In this document: positions 2,269 to 10,394 of the stretch, piece by piece
Layout: each line of letters starts with the position of its first letter
Position numbering within the stretch: the stretch's first letter is position 1
Source: Cyanobacteria bacterium T3Sed10_376R1m
Lineage (GTDB): Bacteria > Cyanobacteriota > Cyanobacteriia > Cyanobacteriales > Cyanobacteriaceae
Length of the DNA: 10,394 bases
Assembly (NCBI GenBank): GCA_003566215.1
Contig: PXEJ01000416.1
Span: 1-10,394, forward strand
Direction: 5' to 3'
Program-made: the position numbers and the translations under genes
Notes under the pieces: model-generated
Told to the model about the DNA's origin: nothing
The model's database searches: none
Seen by the model: the letters and a program-made list of their open reading frames with translations, nothing else

Positions 2269-3072
2269 ATGATTCATGGTTTTATTCCCCCAGAAAGATT
2301 TTTTCCATATCTAACCTGGCAGGAAATTGAACAGATGCCCAATAAGCAAAACACGGTTATTATTCAACCCATGGGAGCAATTGAGCAACATGGACCTCAT
2401 TTACCTTTAGTGGTGGATTCTGCCATTAGTCAAGGAGTATTGGGAGAGGCTTTTAAAGGTCTATCTTCCGATATTTCTGCCTTTGCGTTGCCGACTCTTT
2501 ATTATGGTAAGTCCAACGAACATATTGGTTTTGCTGGGACGATTAGTTTATCTGCCCAAACTTTGCTTTTGGTGTTGAAAGAGATGGCTATAAGTATCTA
2601 TGGAGCTGGTTTTCGTAAGTTAATTTTAATGAATTCCCATGGTGGTCAACCTCAGGTATTGGATATTATTAGTCGTGATTTACATCAAGAGTATCCAGAT
2701 TTTTTAGTTTTTCCTTTTTTTACTTGGGGTGTGCCTCACATTGCGAAGGATTTGATGACTAAGCAAGAGGGAGAAGTTGGTATTCATGGGGGGGATGGGG
2801 AAACCAGTTTGATGTTATCTTTGTTGCCCGACTGGGTAAAAATGGATTTGGCACTCAAGGAGTATCCTTTGGATTTAGGGGAGGGTAGTCTTTTATCCCT
2901 TGAGGGTAAGTTGCCTTTTCCCTGGGTGACAAAGGAATTGAGTAAAAGTGGTGTTATGGGTGATGCGACGGTGGCAACTAAGGATAAGGGCGATCGCATT
3001 TTAGCCTCTTTAGCTAAAGGGTGGGTTCAGGTAATAAGGGATGTTTATAATTATCAACATACTTATAAATAA
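2269..3072 (+). CDS. Creatininase-superfamily metal-dependent amidohydrolase
   Basis: The 267-residue product has the creatininase fold's metal-binding motifs. GAIEQHGPHLPLVVD (36-50) supplies Glu39, His41 and Asp50. NSHGG (122-126) supplies His124. GIHGGDGETS (171-180) supplies the downstream His173/Glu178 segment. The length is normal for the family and there is no signal peptide, so it should be cytoplasmic. Members cleave cyclic or linear amides (creatinine, formamide intermediates of cofactor synthesis, mycofactocin precursor peptide); nothing here identifies the substrate. In classical creatininase a second-metal Glu follows two residues after the NxH histidine; here the residue is Gly126, as in the NGHGGN-type subgroup, so creatininase activity itself is unlikely. 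The start follows the usp stop by 3 bp. GGAG at 2253-2256, inside usp, is the only ribosome-binding candidate, 12 nt away. A run of seven G (2788-2794) encodes part of the HGGDGE motif. Confidence 0.85.
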   Translation: MIHGFIPPERFFPYLTWQEIEQMPNKQNTVIIQPMGAIEQHGPHLPLVVDSAISQGVLGEAFKGLSSDISAFALPTLYYGKSNEHIGFAGTISLSAQTLLLVLKEMAISIYGAGFRKLILMNSHGGQPQVLDIISRDLHQEYPDFLVFPFFTWGVPHIAKDLMTKQEGEVGIHGGDGETSLMLSLLPDWVKMDLALKEYPLDLGEGSLLSLEGKLPFPWVTKELSKSGVMGDATVATKDKGDRILASLAKGWVQVIRDVYNYQHTYK

Positions 3073-3603: not shown

Positions 3604-6078
3604 ATGAGTGAAAATCAAGAATTTCGTCATATTTTAGTTATAGAAGATCGTAAAGGCAGAAGAATAGTCTCCCTAGAAGAAAGTAATTACACCCTAGGTA
3701 GAGACTCGAATAACCCGATAGTTATCTATAACTATCAAGTATCCCGTACCCATGCCACTCTTATTCGCAAAATGGATGACGAAAATGAAGGTTTCTCTTA
3801 TCGCATCATCGATGGAGATTTACAGGGAAAAAGAAGTACCAATGGCCTATTAATTAATGGACATTCTCGTATTTCCCACGAACTAAAACATGGAGATAGT
3901 ATTCGTTTTGCTAACGATGCTAAGGCAAATTACTACATCATTGCCACAGAGTCAGGTATTGATTTATTTAATCCGGGGGACTTGGGTAACATGAATAGTA
4001 AAAGTACCCTTACTAACCCCACCACTCAAACTATTATTTCCAAACAAAATGACGAGTCTAGTAGTAGTCCAGAAGATCAAGAAGAATTAATTCGTTTAGC
4101 TTCTTTCCCAGAATTGAGTCCTCATCCCATTATCGAATTGGACTGGGAAGGTAACATTACATATCTTAATCCTGCGGCTAGTATTAAGTTTGAAAATATT
4201 TATGATGAAAAATTAAACCATCCTATCCTTGATGGTTTACTGCTAGAGTCAAACAACCGTCAGGGTAATTTATTTTTAAGGGAAGTCAAAATTGGAACGG
4301 AAGTATTTGAACAATATGTTCACTATCTATCAGAAAAAAAACTGATTAGAAGTTATATTTTCGATTTTACCAAGAGAAAACAAGTGGAAGCTCAATTAAG
4401 AGAAAGTGAAGCTCGTTACCGTGCTTTAATTCGTCAAACTTCCGAGGGAATCATTCTTGCCTATGCTCAAGATAAAAAAATTATTGAAGTCAATAATATT
4501 TATGCAAAAATGTTGGGCTATACGGAGAAAGAGATTTTGGAGTTATTTCTATACAACATTATTGGGGATAATCTTCAAACTTTAAACCATGATTTAGCTC
4601 AAATTTTGGAAAATAAACAAGACTTTACCAGTGAATATCTTCATCGTCGTAAGGATGGAAGTTTATTAAATCTTGAATGTAGTATTAGCATTAATAATTA
4701 TCAGAATAAGGACGTTTTTTGTATTGTTGTTAAAAATCCTAACACTCCTAAATTTGATATGGATTATGCTAACTATAGTGCTTTTCATGATATGTTAACG
4801 AATCTACCTAATCAAAGATTGTTCCATGAACAGTTGGATATTGCCCTATCTAATGCTAAACGGTATCAATATTTGATGGCTGTTATTGTGGTAGAAATTT
4901 ACCAATTAAAAGAGTTTCAAGAGATAAGGGGTAAGGAGGAAACCGATAAGTTTATTAAGTATTTTACTCAAACATTTCAATCTTGTTTGAGGGCAGGAGA
5001 TTTGGGGGCCAGATGGGATGAAACAAAATTTATCTCTTTATTTTCAAGGATTAGAGGACCTAGAGATCCGGCTAAAATTGCCAAGAGAATGTCAACGGTT
5101 TTAGATCAATATATTCAAGAGCAAAAAGGAAATATTGATTTAAAGTTAAATGTAGGCATGGTAATTTATCCCTTGGATGGCGATGACACGGCAACTTTAG
5201 TTAAAAATGCCCTAATTTCTTTGGAACAAAATAAAAATCCTTTAGTTCCTAATTTTGGGTTGACGGGCTTTAGTATTAGTCCTAAAACCGCTAGTTTGTT
5301 GAAGTTAGAAAGTTTAATTGCTAGTGCGGTAAAAGAAGAACAATTTTTCTTGTGCTATCAACCTCAAGTGGATTTGACTACGAAAACTTTGATAGGCATG
5401 GAGGCATTGTTGCGGTGGAATCATCCTGAGTTGGGTAAGTTGACTCCTCAGCATTTTTTGCGTCTGGCGGAAGAAACTGATTTTATGCTTCCTTTGGGAA
5501 TTTGGATTTTGAAAACGGCAACGGCACAGATGGAGCAATGGCAAAAAGATGGTTTGTTTACGGGTTGTTTGGGGGTCAATATTTCTGGTCGTCAATTTAA
5601 TCAGTCTAATTTTGTGGATGTTGTGAAGACTATTTTAAATGATACTGGTCTGGCTCCAGAAAAGTTGGAGTTGGAAATTGGGGAAAATTGTTTATTGCAA
5701 AATCCTGATTTTTCTGCGCAAACTATTTCTCAGTTACATGAGTTAAATGTCCGCTTATGTTTGGATAATTTTGGAGTTGGTAATTCTTCTTTTGGTTATT
5801 TACAAAAATTTCCTTTTTCTAAGGTTAAAATTAGCCCTAGCATTATTACAAAATTAGTTCCTGATTCTAGGGAAAGTTCTTTGGTAAGGGCGATCGCCAC
5901 TTTTGCTCAGGGACATAATTTAAAGGTTGTGGCAGTGGGGGTAGAAAAACAAGAACAACTTGAATTATTAAAAGACTACAATTGTATAGAAGTTCAAGGG
6001 AATTTATTCAGTGATCCACTAAGCTCCGAAGATGCTAACATTTTTCTAAAGAAAGGGAATAATATTGACATCTCTTAA
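3604..6078 (+). CDS. FHA-PAS-PAS-GGDEF-EAL protein with both c-di-GMP domains degenerate (paralog 1)
   Basis: The 824-residue protein has no membrane segment. Domain order: FHA (about 8-115; GR at 32-33, Ser47 and His50 of SRTH, Asn80-Gly81), a linker, PAS1 (about 163-260), PAS2 (about 265-380), GGDEF (about 390-550) and EAL (about 565-815). The GGDEF signature is DETKF (472-476), and the VDIDxFK metal site has become VEIYQLK (429-435), so cyclase activity is very unlikely. An inhibitory-site motif RAGD (463-466) survives in the correct position, five residues before the signature. The EAL domain keeps Glu600, Asn659, Glu691, Asp721, Lys742, Glu781 and Gln798. It has Asn722 in place of the second Asp of DDFG, Ser744 for the Asp of KID, and Val778 for the Glu of AEGVE. 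These losses predict little or no phosphodiesterase activity. I infer a c-di-GMP-binding or scaffold protein. It is the first gene of a three-paralog array. Confidence 0.9.
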   Translation: MSENQEFRHILVIEDRKGRRIVSLEESNYTLGRDSNNPIVIYNYQVSRTHATLIRKMDDENEGFSYRIIDGDLQGKRSTNGLLINGHSRISHELKHGDSIRFANDAKANYYIIATESGIDLFNPGDLGNMNSKSTLTNPTTQTIISKQNDESSSSPEDQEELIRLASFPELSPHPIIELDWEGNITYLNPAASIKFENIYDEKLNHPILDGLLLESNNRQGNLFLREVKIGTEVFEQYVHYLSEKKLIRSYIFDFTKRKQVEAQLRESEARYRALIRQTSEGIILAYAQDKKIIEVNNIYAKMLGYTEKEILELFLYNIIGDNLQTLNHDLAQILENKQDFTSEYLHRRKDGSLLNLECSISINNYQNKDVFCIVVKNPNTPKFDMDYANYSAFHDMLTNLPNQRLFHEQLDIALSNAKRYQYLMAVIVVEIYQLKEFQEIRGKEETDKFIKYFTQTFQSCLRAGDLGARWDETKFISLFSRIRGPRDPAKIAKRMSTVLDQYIQEQKGNIDLKLNVGMVIYPLDGDDTATLVKNALISLEQNKNPLVPNFGLTGFSISPKTASLLKLESLIASAVKEEQFFLCYQPQVDLTTKTLIGMEALLRWNHPELGKLTPQHFLRLAEETDFMLPLGIWILKTATAQMEQWQKDGLFTGCLGVNISGRQFNQSNFVDVVKTILNDTGLAPEKLELEIGENCLLQNPDFSAQTISQLHELNVRLCLDNFGVGNSSFGYLQKFPFSKVKISPSIITKLVPDSRESSLVRAIATFAQGHNLKVVAVGVEKQEQLELLKDYNCIEVQGNLFSDPLSSEDANIFLKKGNNIDIS

Positions 6079-6122
6079 TTCATTTTAAATTTTCATTATC
6101 TTAAATTCTTCTTGAACAAATC

Positions 6123-8726
6123 ATGAATAGTGATTATACTCCTACCGTCATTAACAATAAACTCAAAAAGTCAATCCATGTTCTAGTCATTAACGATGAA
6201 AACTCTCGTCAAACCATTGTCTTAGACCAAGAAAAATACTCTATTGGTAGAGATCCTCGCAATACTATTGCCCTAACATCAAAAAAAGTATCCCGTATTC
6301 ATGGAACTATCTTAAGACGAGATGATGTAAAAAATCAAACATTTTCTTATTGGTTATTGGACGGAGATTTAAAAGGTAATCGCAGTACTAATGGTATTTT
6401 TATTAATGATAAGCGGTGCTTAGTTCAAGAATTAAAACACGAAGATTTATTAAGGTTTGGGCAGGAGGTAGAAGGTTCTTATTATTTGGTTTCTGATGTG
6501 TCTGAGCTATCAGACTTACAGTCTAAAGACTACCAAAATACCCCTGAACCTCAAGGGACAAATATCGGTCATTCTCTACATCATCAGTCAGCAGAAAAAT
6601 TTGAAACTTTGGTTATTTCTGAGCCAATGGTGGAACTTTTTGAAGAAAGTCAGAGGGCAGAAAAATCATCCCAAGACAATGAAAATCCAGAAGACTCCTC
6701 TCAAGCAGATGAACTGGCTAAGTTGGCTTCTTTTCCCGAATTGAGTCCCAATCCCATTATCGAAATAGATTGGGAGGGAAAAATAACTTATTTAAATCCT
6801 TCTGCCATTAAAAAATTTCCCGAGTTAGAGAGGGATAAATCTAATCTAGAACATCCTCTATTAATTGGTTTGGTAAAAAGCATCAAAAATCATGGTTCTA
6901 ATACTAATTTATTTGTTAGGGAAATTGATATAAAAAATCAGGTTTTTGAAGAGTATATTCATTATTTACCAGAGCAAAAATTAATTCGTTGTTATGTTTT
7001 TGATTTTACTAAAAGAAAAGTTTTAGAGGGTCAGTTAAAAGAGAGTGAACAAAGATATAAAACAGTTTTGAATCAGACTAGGGAAGGAATTTTTCTAGTT
7101 GACTGTAATGATAAAAAAATCTTAGAAGCGAATAATGCCTGTGCTGATTTGCTGGGCTATCGTTTGGATGAGCTACATTGTTTAAAATTATATGATTTAT
7201 TAAATCTTTCTTCTGCACAAGTTGATGAAAGGGTTAATTTTTTGGTAGAAAATAAAAGTAATACTAAGAAAAATGTAGAAATTTTATCCCTTTTGAACAA
7301 GGAAAATGGTTTTGTCAGTTTTGAGGCTAGTTCTACTTTAATTAGTTATGGTGATCAAAGAATTATTTCTTTTACCATACGTCCTGTTTCTTTGGAAGTA
7401 GAAGGGCAAACCATGATTCAGCAAGATCAAGGTTTATTTGACTTGGAGACGGGGTTGCCTAATCGTTATCTATTTATGGAACAGTTAGAGACTGCGATCG
7501 CAAATACCCATAGAAGTCAGGGGTTATTGTGTTTAATGTTCATTGAATTAGAATTAGATAAAAAAATAAATCAAACCAAAAACTATCGCCTCAAATCCAA
7601 TTTATTTGAAGGTTTTTCTAAAAGACTAAGATCATCCTTAAGAGCCGGGGATACTGTTGCCCGTTGGCAGGGGAGTCAATTTGTTTGTTTACTTCCCCAA
7701 GTCAAAACAATTAAAGATATAGGAAAAGTCAGTAATCGGGTTTTAGAAACTTTAAGACCACCATTTTTCTTGGATCATCAAAAGATTTACATTAAAACTA
7801 GCATGGGTATTACTATTTATGGGGAAGAGAATAATTCCTCATCTTTGTTATTAAATAATTCCCAAACTGCTTTAAACAAAAGTAAAGAATCTGGTAGCAA
7901 TAATTATAAGTTTTTTGACCCTGAAATTGAACAAGAAATTGAACGCTTATTACGTTTAGAAAAACTTTTATTCCATGCCTTGGATAAAAAAGAGTTTTCG
8001 TTGTGTTATCAACCCATAGTAAATGTTAAAACCAGAGAAATATCAGGGGTAGAAGCACTATTAAGATGGAATCATCCTGAATTAGGTGGAATTTTACCAA
8101 GTCAATTCCTTCCTTTAGCAGAGGAAACTGGGTTGATTGTACCCATCGGGGAATGGGTATTAGAAAGGGCTTGTTTTCAACATCGTATTTGGCTTAAAAA
8201 TAATGTGATTAATAAACCAATTCATGTAAATATTTCTAATCAACAATTTCAACAACCTAACTTTGTGAATATGATTAGTAATATCCTCGACAAAACTACC
8301 CTAAGTCCAGAATTTTTAGAGTTAGAAATTACAGAACAAACTATTAATAATGATTTGGAGTTAGCTCAAAAAACCTTAAAAGACTTAAATCAAATAGGGG
8401 TGAGAATTTGTTTAGATGATTTTGGAAAGGGTATGTCAGCGATAGGTTTCCTCAAACAATTTAAATTTCATACTTTGAAAATAGATACGGAAATTGTTCA
8501 TAATTTAGCCGATCACCCTCAAGATATAGCCATCATTACTGCTATTATTGGGATAGGTAAGAGTTTTAATTTGCAAGTAGTTGCCGAGGGTATTGAAACT
8601 AAATCCCAGCTAAAACTTTTGTCAGATTTGGGTTGTGAAGAGATTCAAGGTAATTTATTTACTTCGCCGTTGAAAATGGATGATACAACTAATTTCTTGG
8701 CGAATCCAAGTTATACTTTCAATTAA
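6123..8726 (+). CDS. FHA-PAS-PAS-GGDEF-EAL protein, inactive GGDEF, probable c-di-GMP phosphodiesterase (paralog 2)
   Basis: This 867-residue cytoplasmic protein has the domain order of paralog 1 with a longer linker. FHA is at about 18-125 (GR 42-43, Ser57, His60, Asn90-Gly91). PAS1 (about 198-300) and PAS2 (about 305-420) follow, then GGDEF (about 435-600) and EAL (about 608-860). The GGDEF signature reads QGSQF (516-520), and the VDID metal site has become IELEL, so it should not make c-di-GMP. RAGD (507-510) remains as a possible inhibitory-type binding site. The EAL catalytic set looks complete: Glu644, Asn703, Glu735, Asp765-Asp766, Lys786, Asp788, Glu822, Glu825 and Gln842. This predicts hydrolysis of c-di-GMP to pGpG. 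Loop 6 is off consensus (DDFGKGMSA instead of DDFGTGYSS), which may lower activity or make it regulated. The gene starts 44 bp after paralog 1, with no Shine-Dalgarno or clear promoter in the gap, consistent with one transcript. Confidence 0.9.
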
Positions 8727-8758
8727 TACTAATTTTTACCCCCAAAATTTCTTATCCA

Positions 8759-10394
8759 ATGATTAGTAATAATAGTGAATTTGATCATGTTTTAGTAATA
8801 GAAGAACCTCAAGGACAAATGTCAATATCCTTAGAATCTAGCCTCTATAGTGTTGGAAGACATTCGGGGAGTAATATTCGTCTTAATTCAGTTTCAGTTT
8901 CCCGTCATCATGCCACGTTAATTAGAACTGATGTTAGCGATGAGCATTATTTGTATGTATTAATTGATGGGGATTTAAATGGAAATAGAAGTCAGAATGG
9001 AATTTTAGTCAATGGGGAAAAGATTATTCGCCGTCAGCTAAAAGATGGCGATGTAATATTATTTGGGGCGGAAGATGTACGGGGTACTTATAGTGTCATT
9101 CAAAAAAAGTCTTATCAAAGTAGAAATCCTGACGAGAAAGATAGTTGGCGTGTTAGCAATAATCAATTGAAGTTAAACCGGGAAGAGTTACAAAATACCC
9201 TAATTTTATCGGAGGAAAATTTAAGTGCCAATTTGTCTAATACAGATTCGGTTGACGATGATGTAAAAAGACTTGCTTCTTTTCCTGAGTTGTCCCCCCA
9301 TCCTATTATTGAGTTAGATTATGATGGTAAGATCACCTACATGAATCCGGCTGCGAATCTTTCTTTTACGGATTTGTCTAGTTATGATAACGATACTCAT
9401 CCCCTGACAAATAATTTAACTATTCCTAAGGATACTCAAAATAGTCAGTTGGTGGTTCGAGAAATACAGGTGTGCGATCGCTATTTTGAACAATACATAC
9501 ATTATCTATCAAAATATAATGTTATTAGAAACTATATTTTTGACATTACCGAAAGGAAAAACTCCGAAGCAAAATTACAATATCAAGCCCATCATGATTC
9601 TTTAACAGGTATTGGTAATCGTGACTACTTTTATTGGGAATTAAACAACAAACTGCGCCAAGCGAAAAAATATAATCAATCCTTAGGGATTTTATTTGTT
9701 GATATTGATCGTTTTAAAAATATTAATGATACCTTGAATCATACTACGGGCGATCGCCTTTTAGAAAGTTTTGCTGATCGTCTTCTTTCTTGTTTACCTA
9801 ATACCTGTTTGATGGCTCGTTGGGGGGGGGATGAATTTACCATCTCAATTTCAGAGGTAGAAAATAATACCGTTCAAGAAATTATTAACCTCATAACAGA
9901 AAGTTTGAGAGAGCCTTTTATAATTGATAAATATACGATTTATATTACCTGTAGCTTGGGAGTAGCGGTATATCCCCAAGATGGTAAAACGAAAGAACAA
10001 TTAATTCAAAATGCTGATACCGCCTTATCTCGTGCCAAAAAAATGGGCAAAAATAATTCCCAATACTACACAACTCAATTAAGTGAAGAACAGATGTTAT
10101 TATTTGAGTTGGAAACCAGTTTATATAATGCGATCGCCAATAATGAGCTATTTCTTAACTATCAACCCCAACTAGACTTAGAAAGTGGAAAAATTCACAG
10201 TTTAGAAGCCCTGTTAAGGTGGAAACATTCAGAACGAGGTATGATTTCACCAGCCACATTTATCCCCCTAGCTGAAGAAACAGGGTTAATTATCGAAATT
10301 GGAGAATGGGTATTAAAAACCGCCTGTGAACAAACAAGAAAATGGCTAGATTTAGGATATGATTTACACACCGTGGCAGTGAATGTTTCCGTAA
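8759..10394 (+). CDS. FHA-PAS-GGDEF-EAL protein with intact GGDEF (paralog 3, 3' end outside window)
   Basis: The frame is open from ATG 8759 to the window end (545 codons) with no stop. FHA is at about 9-115 (GR 33-34, Ser48, His51, Asn80-Gly81). A linker leads to one PAS domain (about 170-268), which runs straight into GGDEF (about 277-437); the second PAS of paralogs 1 and 2 is absent. The cyclase site is intact: VDIDRFK (314-320), Asn323, Asp332 and GGDEF (356-360). The inhibitory RxxD position holds PNTC (347-350), so product inhibition there is lost. The EAL domain begins near 445 with EALLRW (483-488) and the catalytic Asn542 before the sequence runs out. I infer a diguanylate cyclase, with phosphodiesterase status undecided. 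GGDEF is encoded through nine consecutive G (9822-9830). The gene lies 32 bp after paralog 2, without a visible ribosome-binding site. Confidence 0.88.
   Translation, partial: MISNNSEFDHVLVIEEPQGQMSISLESSLYSVGRHSGSNIRLNSVSVSRHHATLIRTDVSDEHYLYVLIDGDLNGNRSQNGILVNGEKIIRRQLKDGDVILFGAEDVRGTYSVIQKKSYQSRNPDEKDSWRVSNNQLKLNREELQNTLILSEENLSANLSNTDSVDDDVKRLASFPELSPHPIIELDYDGKITYMNPAANLSFTDLSSYDNDTHPLTNNLTIPKDTQNSQLVVREIQVCDRYFEQYIHYLSKYNVIRNYIFDITERKNSEAKLQYQAHHDSLTGIGNRDYFYWELNNKLRQAKKYNQSLGILFVDIDRFKNINDTLNHTTGDRLLESFADRLLSCLPNTCLMARWGGDEFTISISEVENNTVQEIINLITESLREPFIIDKYTIYITCSLGVAVYPQDGKTKEQLIQNADTALSRAKKMGKNNSQYYTTQLSEEQMLLFELETSLYNAIANNELFLNYQPQLDLESGKIHSLEALLRWKHSERGMISPATFIPLAEETGLIIEIGEWVLKTACEQTRKWLDLGYDLHTVAVNVSV

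Follow-up and report, generated by a model that had tools for sequence, protein, structure and literature searches.

A conserved trio of cyanobacterial FHA-PAS-GGDEF-EAL paralogs with complementary losses of catalytic and putative c-di-GMP-binding motifs: a possible three-protein module

Introduction

Dead domains are common in hybrid GGDEF-EAL proteins, and a recurring question is whether these are relics or act as sensors. It is raised anew by a stretch of 10,394 nucleotides from Cyanobacteria bacterium T3Sed10_376R1m (positions 1-10394 of contig PXEJ01000416.1, C95 in our numbering; hereafter the window), in which three adjacent genes, here termed P1, P2 and P3, encode FHA-PAS-GGDEF-EAL proteins that have lost different motifs for making, breaking and binding cyclic di-GMP (c-di-GMP). 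The genome measures 2.14 Mb in 431 contigs and is estimated to be 63% complete. An earlier note on this DNA read the genes as tandem paralogs whose activity motifs improve along the operon, and preferred a division of labour to simple gene decay. Are the dead domains of the trio leftovers of duplication, or have they been kept for their ligand? Here we describe how the intact GGDEF motif and the inhibitory site (I-site) are partitioned among the three proteins and their relatives, a partition absent from the earlier note, and tentatively propose that the trio could form a c-di-GMP module.

Results

Three paralogs and their motif states

P1, P2 and P3 are adjacent open reading frames (ORFs) on the same strand with intergenic gaps of 44 and 32 bp, and their description as three FHA-PAS-GGDEF-EAL paralogs is borne out by the ORFs, by Pfam and by alignment. 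Pfam calls FHA, PAS, GGDEF and EAL domains in P1 and P2, and FHA, GGDEF and a partial EAL in P3; it calls no GAF in any of the three and no HAMP in P1, in which FHA and PAS precede the GGDEF-EAL pair. The first PAS domain begins at the common entry motif LASFPELSP, which occurs once in each protein as had been claimed, and is seen by alignment, with no Pfam call in P1, P2 or P3. The front halves had been described as the same, which is true of the FHA and first PAS but not of the second PAS, found in P1 and P2 (about amino acids (aa) 311-418 in P2) and lacking in P3. Similarly, the shared GGDEF-EAL end holds for P1, P2 and full-length relatives of P3, but the EAL of P3 in the window is cut by the contig end. 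Because P2 and P3 are each only 38% identical to P1, the duplications are, judged from sequence, old. The features of the trio are as follows.

3604..6078, + strand: P1, FHA-PAS-PAS-GGDEF-EAL, 824 aa (ORF and Pfam); GGDEF and EAL dead by motif
3688..3909, + strand: P1 FHA domain, phosphothreonine-binding-type motif intact (GRDSNN, VSRTH, RSTNG)
4096..4122, + strand: P1 LASFPELSP, entry of the first PAS (aa 165)
4411..4728, + strand: P1 second PAS (about aa 270-375; Pfam)
4780..5238, + strand: P1 GGDEF domain, dead by motif
4861..4863, + strand: P1 R420, upstream I-site Arg at offset -52
4990..5001, + strand: P1 primary I-site RAGD (R463-D466)
5017..5031, + strand: P1 DETKF (aa 472-476) at the GGDEF position
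5323..6018, + strand: P1 EAL, ligand residues E, N, E, D, K, E and Q present; N722, S744 and V778 in place of D, D and E
6123..8726, + strand: P2, FHA-PAS-PAS-GGDEF-EAL, 867 aa; GGDEF dead and EAL complete by motif
6723..6749, + strand: P2 LASFPELSP (aa 201)
7440..7904, + strand: P2 GGDEF domain, dead by motif, with QGSQF at 7668-7682
7512..7514, + strand: P2 R464, upstream I-site Arg at offset -52 (R in 48/48 clusters)
7641..7652, + strand: P2 primary I-site RAGD (R, G and D invariant in 48/48 clusters)
7968..8669, + strand: P2 EAL domain, full catalytic set
8759..10393, + strand: P3, FHA-PAS-GGDEF-EAL, at least 545 aa, GGDEF intact, open at the window end
9272..9298, + strand: P3 LASFPELSP (aa 172)
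9587..10057, + strand: P3 GGDEF domain, intact; GGDEF at 9824-9838 (aa 356-360), FVDIDRFK at 9695-9718
9797..9808, + strand: P3 PNTC at the RxxD position, with K at offset -52 (9668-9670); I-site lost
10118..10390, + strand: P3 EAL, model positions 3-92 of 236 only (window end)

The motif states reported previously were all recovered: DETKF in P1, with N722, S744 and V778 where P2 has Asp, Asp and Glu; a degraded GGDEF (QGSQF) beside a complete EAL in P2; and an intact GGDEF in P3. In addition, the metal-binding Asp of the GGDEF domain is replaced by Glu in both P1 (VVEI) and P2 (FIEL). The phosphodiesterase activity of EAL domains is scored by ten metal, ligand and base residues, and P2 has all ten, in EALLRW, VNIS, ELEITE, DDFG, LKID and AEGIE. 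FHA domains that bind phosphothreonine are marked by conserved GR, S, H and NG residues, and at the motif level these are present in P1, P2 and P3.

The RAGD sequence of P1 and P2 begins nine residues ahead of the GGDEF position, and a further Arg lies 43 residues before it, at offset -52. In WspR, c-di-GMP is bound both by R242 of the RxxD motif and by R198, which lies 44 residues earlier, and mutants without either Arg are reported to purify essentially nucleotide-free and to be highly active (PMC2270323). Given this precedent and the similar spacing, we read the two elements as one putative c-di-GMP site, of which the window copies of P1 and P2, each with a dead GGDEF, retain both halves.

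Conservation of ligand and catalytic positions in relatives

Three protein searches, from which the best 120 each of 630, 936 and 302 matches were taken, gave 287 distinct proteins; the alignment comprised the 283 with a length of 650 aa or more. The P1 clade holds 39 clusters and the P2 clade 48 (support 1.0 each, with the P1 and P2 of the window counted), and the P3 clade 47, with a support of 0.32 and with the out-of-family protein P0221 included. An intact GGDEF is found in none of the 39 P1 and none of the 48 P2 clusters but in 47/47 P3 clusters, all of which (47/47) also keep the Asp of FxD. The I-site is distributed the other way: the Arg and Asp of RxxD are present in 48/48 and 48/48 P2 clusters, 32/39 and 36/39 P1 clusters and 0/47 and 1/47 P3 clusters; the upstream Arg in 48/48, 32/39 and 0/47; and the two elements jointly in 48/48, 30/39 and 0/47, respectively. 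Within the P1 EAL domain the residues E, N, E, the first D, K, E and Q are each kept in 39/39 clusters, while the second Asp is lost in 33, the KID Asp in 38 and the AEG Glu in 31 of the 39, all three being kept in a single cluster (1/39). Relatives of P3 have nine of the ten EAL residues in 47/47 clusters and the tenth, the last Glu, in 45/47. Since the same states recur in relatives, those in the window go beyond chance.

Ranking of alignment columns by conservation gives the same picture. Of the 162 columns in the P2 GGDEF domain 16 are invariant, and these include the R, G and D of the I-site, whereas positions 1-4 of the GGDEF motif and the GTP-site Asn position vary, the second and third motif positions ranking 150th and 132nd. 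In the P1 EAL domain the seven ligands are among 35 invariant of 250 columns and the second Asp ranks 186th; constraint on the P1 I-site is weaker, R ranking 62nd and D 25th among 164 columns. On these ranks, selection appears to have preserved the ligand positions and released the catalytic ones, the P2 I-site and the P1 EAL pocket being the clearest cases. Use of the dead GGDEF domains as GTP sensors is disfavoured, the GTP-site Asn position and both Gly being gone in most P1 and P2 clusters. Among P1 clusters there is no support for a trade-off between catalytic residues kept and I-site lost (Fisher p = 0.30), and co-loss of the two I-site halves (Fisher p = 0.0007) is a weak signal, as 5/9 affected clusters are one lineage.

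Selection and predicted structure

Relaxed selection on P1, which would have pointed to decay, leaves no sign in dN/dS, the ratio of nonsynonymous to synonymous substitution rates (NG86 method), whether per domain or over the whole gene. All three genes are under purifying selection. Across the six genome pairs with usable dS, P1 gives 0.02-0.22 for GGDEF and 0.05-0.13 for EAL; a seventh, the window genome against G001, is saturated, with an infinite dS for both P1 domains. These values call for caution, since dS approaches or exceeds saturation in several of the pairs, the safest being G007-G010 with a whole-gene dS of 0.26-0.43. Whole-gene dN/dS in three pairs is 0.062, 0.048 and 0.038 for P1, 0.084, 0.069 and 0.068 for P2 and 0.068, 0.088 and 0.067 for P3, so that in each pair the P1 value falls below those of P2 and P3; 11 flanking genes range over 0.049-0.149, with the trio inside or beneath that range, and within pairs P1 lies under ten of them, the exception being c3 (0.053 vs 0.062 for P1). 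Mean pairwise identity of P1 over 13 genomes is highest in FHA (0.82) and the first PAS (0.87) and lowest in GGDEF (0.55).

An AlphaFold2 (AF2) model of P1 from 74 aligned sequences has a mean predicted local distance difference test (pLDDT) score of 81.5; ten-residue blocks score about 82-93 in most of the GGDEF domain, and in the EAL they generally exceed 85. Its predicted template modelling (pTM) score is 0.45, and the arrangement of the domains is therefore not established. The EAL fold is predicted to be intact, although a confident model does not prove folding or binding. Foldseek searches with this model return GGDEF-EAL structures of DosP, MorA and PA0575 as the best partial matches, and isolated EAL domains of MorA, MucR and others at a target-normalised TM score of about 0.9; among the 50 best matches listed, LapD does not come before rank 23 and FimX is absent.

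The array in related genomes

The front part of P1 was searched over 40 genomes, of which 34 matched, and the matching loci were then read. Absence of the array from close relatives had been named beforehand as a pointer to simple decay, but it is present: P1-P2-P3 stand in order on one strand in 11 of the 15 family genomes (the window genome, G001, G003, G004, G006, G008, G009, G011, G012, G013 and G014), with P3 interrupted by stops in G012 and cut in the window. Close relatives include Cyanobacterium sp. HL-69, Cyanobacterium stanieri LEGE 03274 and Geminocystis. In G007 and G010 the three orthologs lie at three separate places with unchanged motif states. Frequent frameshifts in P1 orthologs had likewise been named as a mark of decay; the genes are mostly full length, but breaks do occur in single genomes, namely a P1 deletion in G005, a fusion in G002 and the P3 stops in G012. 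In the last of these (Geminocystis GBBB08, L029:2582-4681) the stops split P3 in a contig with a coverage of 1.9, and they may reflect either a sequencing error or a genuine interruption. Gaps between the trio genes in ten relatives span 8-427 bp with mechanically assigned start codons, the maxima of 324 and 427 bp falling in two of them.

The flanks were compared through 98 ORFs (at least 70 aa) in 19 loci, the window and 18 others; 47 of these ORFs fall into 20 shared clusters. As 19 of the 20 clusters are confined to one genus, it is mainly the trio itself that is kept. The sole cross-genus flank is purH (AICARFT/IMPCHase), divergent from P1 in G006, G008, G009 and G014, which represent two genera. 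A constant functional neighbour gene was accordingly rejected, purH being a housekeeping gene, and none of the three genes upstream of the trio in the window is common to the flanks of the other loci examined. PilZ matches occur in 11 of the 15 family genomes, 10 of them above the curated cut-off, and the trio is therefore not needed as the only receptor. The neighbouring genes are these.

162-1457, + strand: MFS transporter, upstream of the trio
1693-2265, + strand: Usp protein, upstream of the trio
2269-3072, + strand: creatininase-family protein, upstream of the trio
L019:10109-11644, L023:2037-3572, L024:10517-12052 and L031:2036-3643: purH, divergent from P1

Phylogeny and order of losses

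Quick trees were built for the front halves (87 rows) and catalytic halves (100 rows); second copies from the same genome, G005, the G012 P3 fragments, fragments of less than 450 aa, other GGDEF and EAL proteins of the window genome and the distant or partial loci L068 and L077-L083 were left out of both. In both trees the family P1, P2 and P3 form three separate clades (support 99-100), each joined in a wider group by the positionally equivalent Prochloraceae gene (support 88-97), and the deep branches are unresolved. Because of this grouping, the duplications probably predate the family. The same gene order recurs in the Prochloraceae genome G031 (L032), whose trio includes a P1 with a complete EAL.

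Glu replaces the GGDEF metal Asp in 34/39 P1 and 46/48 P2 clusters, and also in P1 and P2 of Prochloraceae and Gomphosphaeria, the Gomphosphaeria P1 still reading GGEEF; this common replacement suggests that P1 and P2 probably share an early loss of cyclase activity. Decay of the P1 EAL appears later and stepwise. In the FastTree tree as drawn, six of the eight P1 clusters that branch first keep the second Asp and the AEG Glu, and one early-branching cluster, P0029, keeps the second Asp, the KID Asp and the AEG Glu. The notion of a simple gradient of decay along the operon does not quite hold in this comparison, in which the P1 and P2 GGDEF domains probably lost their activity early and the P1 EAL afterwards.

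Related genes occur elsewhere. G031 has a second FHA-PAS-GGDEF-EAL pair near the P3 clade (L041:2458-6827), one member of which has an intact GGDEF without RxxD (PKNG). Rows of three (L058, L059, L060, L062, L065, L066, L069, L070, L071 and L074) or two (L063 and L067) related genes with other motif states are found in Crocosphaera, Hydrococcus, Chroococcus, Aphanothece, Chlorogloea and Gomphosphaeria; the quick trees do not settle, at their depth, whether the Crocosphaera-type triplets are orthologous with P1-P2-P3. At L038:2440-4482 a P1-like FHA-PAS front belongs to a histidine kinase-receiver protein, and the neighbouring gene (L038:4684-6951) encodes FHA-PAS-GGDEF-EAL, so the same front half serves another output; L039 has a like layout, the kinase of L038 being the one that was domain-scanned. 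Two genomes (L034:3492-5984 and L061:6597-9092) encode a full-length P1-like protein whose EAL is much more strongly degraded (EASLYW, AQNVT); in the tree of catalytic halves it stands as sister group of the P1 clade. Finally, L064, a contig labelled as a Chloroflexaceae metagenome-assembled genome, carries a P1-like gene with 52% identity over the front part. The label is probably a mistake, since this genome (G024) ranks within the taxonomic order of the window genome.

Discussion

We tentatively propose, at a confidence just short of even, that P1, P2 and P3 form a three-protein c-di-GMP module sharing out the functions of one GGDEF-EAL ancestor. P3 would make c-di-GMP and, its I-site being gone, would be freed from product inhibition; as the EAL of its relatives looks competent, it could also hydrolyse the product. 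P2 would be a phosphodiesterase whose dead GGDEF senses c-di-GMP at the retained I-site and which is activated when c-di-GMP is high, so that product feedback would act on the hydrolase and not on the synthase. Because the second Arg of the WspR site comes from a neighbouring GGDEF domain, P2 would need to pair with itself or a sister. P1 would neither make nor break c-di-GMP but might hold it in the EAL pocket, at the I-site or at both, and act as a receptor, scaffold or hetero-partner. The three FHA domains could bring the proteins to partners bearing phosphothreonine and thus provide a common address. Here we infer ligand binding, the direction of gating, hetero-association, the FHA target and the output. 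A more specific form of the proposal, possible but doubtful, is that feedback has moved: the synthase lost its I-site, P2 and the dead P1 kept I-site GGDEF domains only as sensors, and in the resulting self-contained three-protein controller the hydrolase would hold the set point while phosphothreonine, read by FHA, would give the address. The roles assigned previously (sensor or scaffold, phosphodiesterase, synthase) agree with the motif states, from which they are drawn, but P3 may both make and break c-di-GMP.

Several observations weigh against this proposal. The P3 clade, with its low support, takes in an out-of-family protein. Part or all of the I-site is lost in 9/39 P1 clusters, which makes the EAL pocket the better candidate for a ligand site in P1, though even there the Arg of EALLRW is kept in 36/39. 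At least one scored EAL residue is missing in 12/48 P2 clusters, the other 36/48 having all ten. Among the 149 proteins outside the three clades, RxxD is found in 105/113 with an intact GGDEF and also in 34/36 with a degenerate one. Because dead GGDEF domains elsewhere keep the motif too, its presence in P1 and P2 is, on sequence grounds, partly family background, and what stands out is its loss from P3. The I-site residues could also be kept for structural reasons, although the loss in P3 argues otherwise. By analogy with CdgSH of Anabaena, the net activity of P3 could be hydrolysis (PMC8682488).

Two family genomes further indicate that the full trio is dispensable. In G002, an in-frame deletion of about 3.7 kb has removed P2 and fused P1 and P3 in a gene for 1240 aa (L014:4546-8265), which runs in P1 to about aa 690 and continues in P3 from about aa 146; it retains the P1 FHA, PAS domains, dead GGDEF and half of the EAL, followed by the P3 PAS, GGDEF and EAL, the P3 FHA being gone. 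The best match to the P2 front in this genome, at 48% identity, lies inside the fusion gene, and P2 is therefore absent. The fusion fits joint working of P1 and P3 but does not prove it. In G005 (MH1_Bin12, L017:1530-6260) all three paralogs have internal deletions: P1 (547 aa) has lost the second PAS and GGDEF in frame, leaving FHA, the first PAS to about aa 234 and the dead EAL; P2 (508 aa) has lost both PAS domains in frame; and P3 has lost PAS and GGDEF with a change of frame. A protein from another source, which may be the same sample, matches the P1 form at 544/547 positions. This form suggests that the dead EAL is a useful part of P1.

The damage in these genomes, together with the P3 stops in G012 and the drift of active-site positions in P1 and P2, is what one would expect if P1 and the dead GGDEF domains were duplication leftovers heading to loss. 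We consider such simple decay very improbable. The trio is full length and in frame in most family genomes, and all three genes are retained even where they are dispersed; P1 has the lowest whole-gene dN/dS of the paralogs, with dead domains at 0.02-0.22 in the six pairs; and the ligand residues are invariant while the catalytic residues drift. The earlier preference for a division of labour over decay is thus supported by dN/dS, ligand residues and retention. P1 and the degenerate GGDEF domains could instead serve as dimerisation partners of the active P3 and P2 domains, tuning them sterically with no need of c-di-GMP. Heteromeric contacts of degenerate GGDEF domains are described in E. coli (PMC5635695), and both the co-location in a single array and the natural in-frame P1-P3 fusion in G002 would suit this explanation, yet it leaves unexplained the upstream Arg and RxxD in 48/48 P2 clusters and the seven EAL ligand residues in 39/39 P1 clusters, and we regard it as unlikely.

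Somewhat unlikely, in our estimate, is that the three are independent GGDEF-EAL regulators that remain neighbours by inertia, P3 being an ordinary dual enzyme with dominant hydrolysis. CdgSH is described in this way (PMC8682488), single FHA-GGDEF-EAL proteins are known in Microcystis and Synechocystis (PMC4632739, PMC7063779), the genes stand apart in G007 and G010, and the intergenic gaps reach 324 and 427 bp in two relatives. Set against this, the order is kept in 11/15 genomes though most flanks differ between genera, and the I-site partition across the three proteins is complementary.

FimX, like LapD, is a c-di-GMP effector with a degenerate EAL, and LapD has a membrane-anchored architecture with HAMP. 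P1 resembles both in having two domains that are dead by motif with an EAL fold predicted to be intact. It differs from LapD, a degenerate-EAL effector (PMC5052742), in its FHA and PAS front, the lack of a HAMP call and the seven EAL ligand residues kept. A degenerate GGDEF with an intact I-site that binds c-di-GMP is described for PopA and CdgI (PMC5052742, PMC5635695), and P1 and P2 share this motif state; P2 adds a complete EAL, the outputs differ, and the likeness is one of motifs. P2 also recalls the trigger phosphodiesterases PdeR and PdeL, EAL hydrolases proposed to sense c-di-GMP as well; in these, activity modulates contact with target macromolecules (PMC5052742), whereas P2 would sense at the I-site of its dead GGDEF.

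Among cyanobacterial proteins, CdgSH of Anabaena sp. PCC 7120 is a cytoplasmic FHA-PAS-GAF-GGDEF-EAL protein with both catalytic domains complete, and in vitro a dual enzyme in which hydrolysis dominates (PMC8682488). It is a single protein with GAF and both activities, in contrast to three paralogs with complementary losses and no GAF call, of which only P3 relatives have both enzymes complete. Sll1895 of Synechocystis PCC 6803 and a Microcystis hybrid share the FHA-GGDEF-EAL layout; RXXD and GGDEF are less conserved in the hybrid than in Microcystis cyclases, one such protein is reported in 23/24 Microcystis genomes, and the parts of these papers available describe no array or motif split (PMC4632739, PMC7063779). 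DgcB of Bdellovibrio likewise has an FHA ahead of GGDEF, with a phosphopeptide cleft that regulates the cyclase, and is activated by its own phosphorylated N-terminal tail (PMC6733907). The first FHA strand begins at residue 7 in the P1 model, for which reason a self-tail mechanism is unlikely and a partner in trans more likely for the P1 FHA.

Among the matches listed in searches of the open-access full-text literature there is no description of a three-gene FHA-PAS-GGDEF-EAL array. Every kind of component is thus known, and the conserved three-gene partition is undescribed as far as the literature searched shows. The occurrence of the trio in many genomes with complementary losses means that natural variation separates conservation of the catalytic site from that of the ligand site, and from the trio one can predict which of the proteins would bind c-di-GMP and which would make or break it. 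Migration of feedback from a cyclase to a phosphodiesterase, should it have taken place here, is made directly testable by the three proteins.

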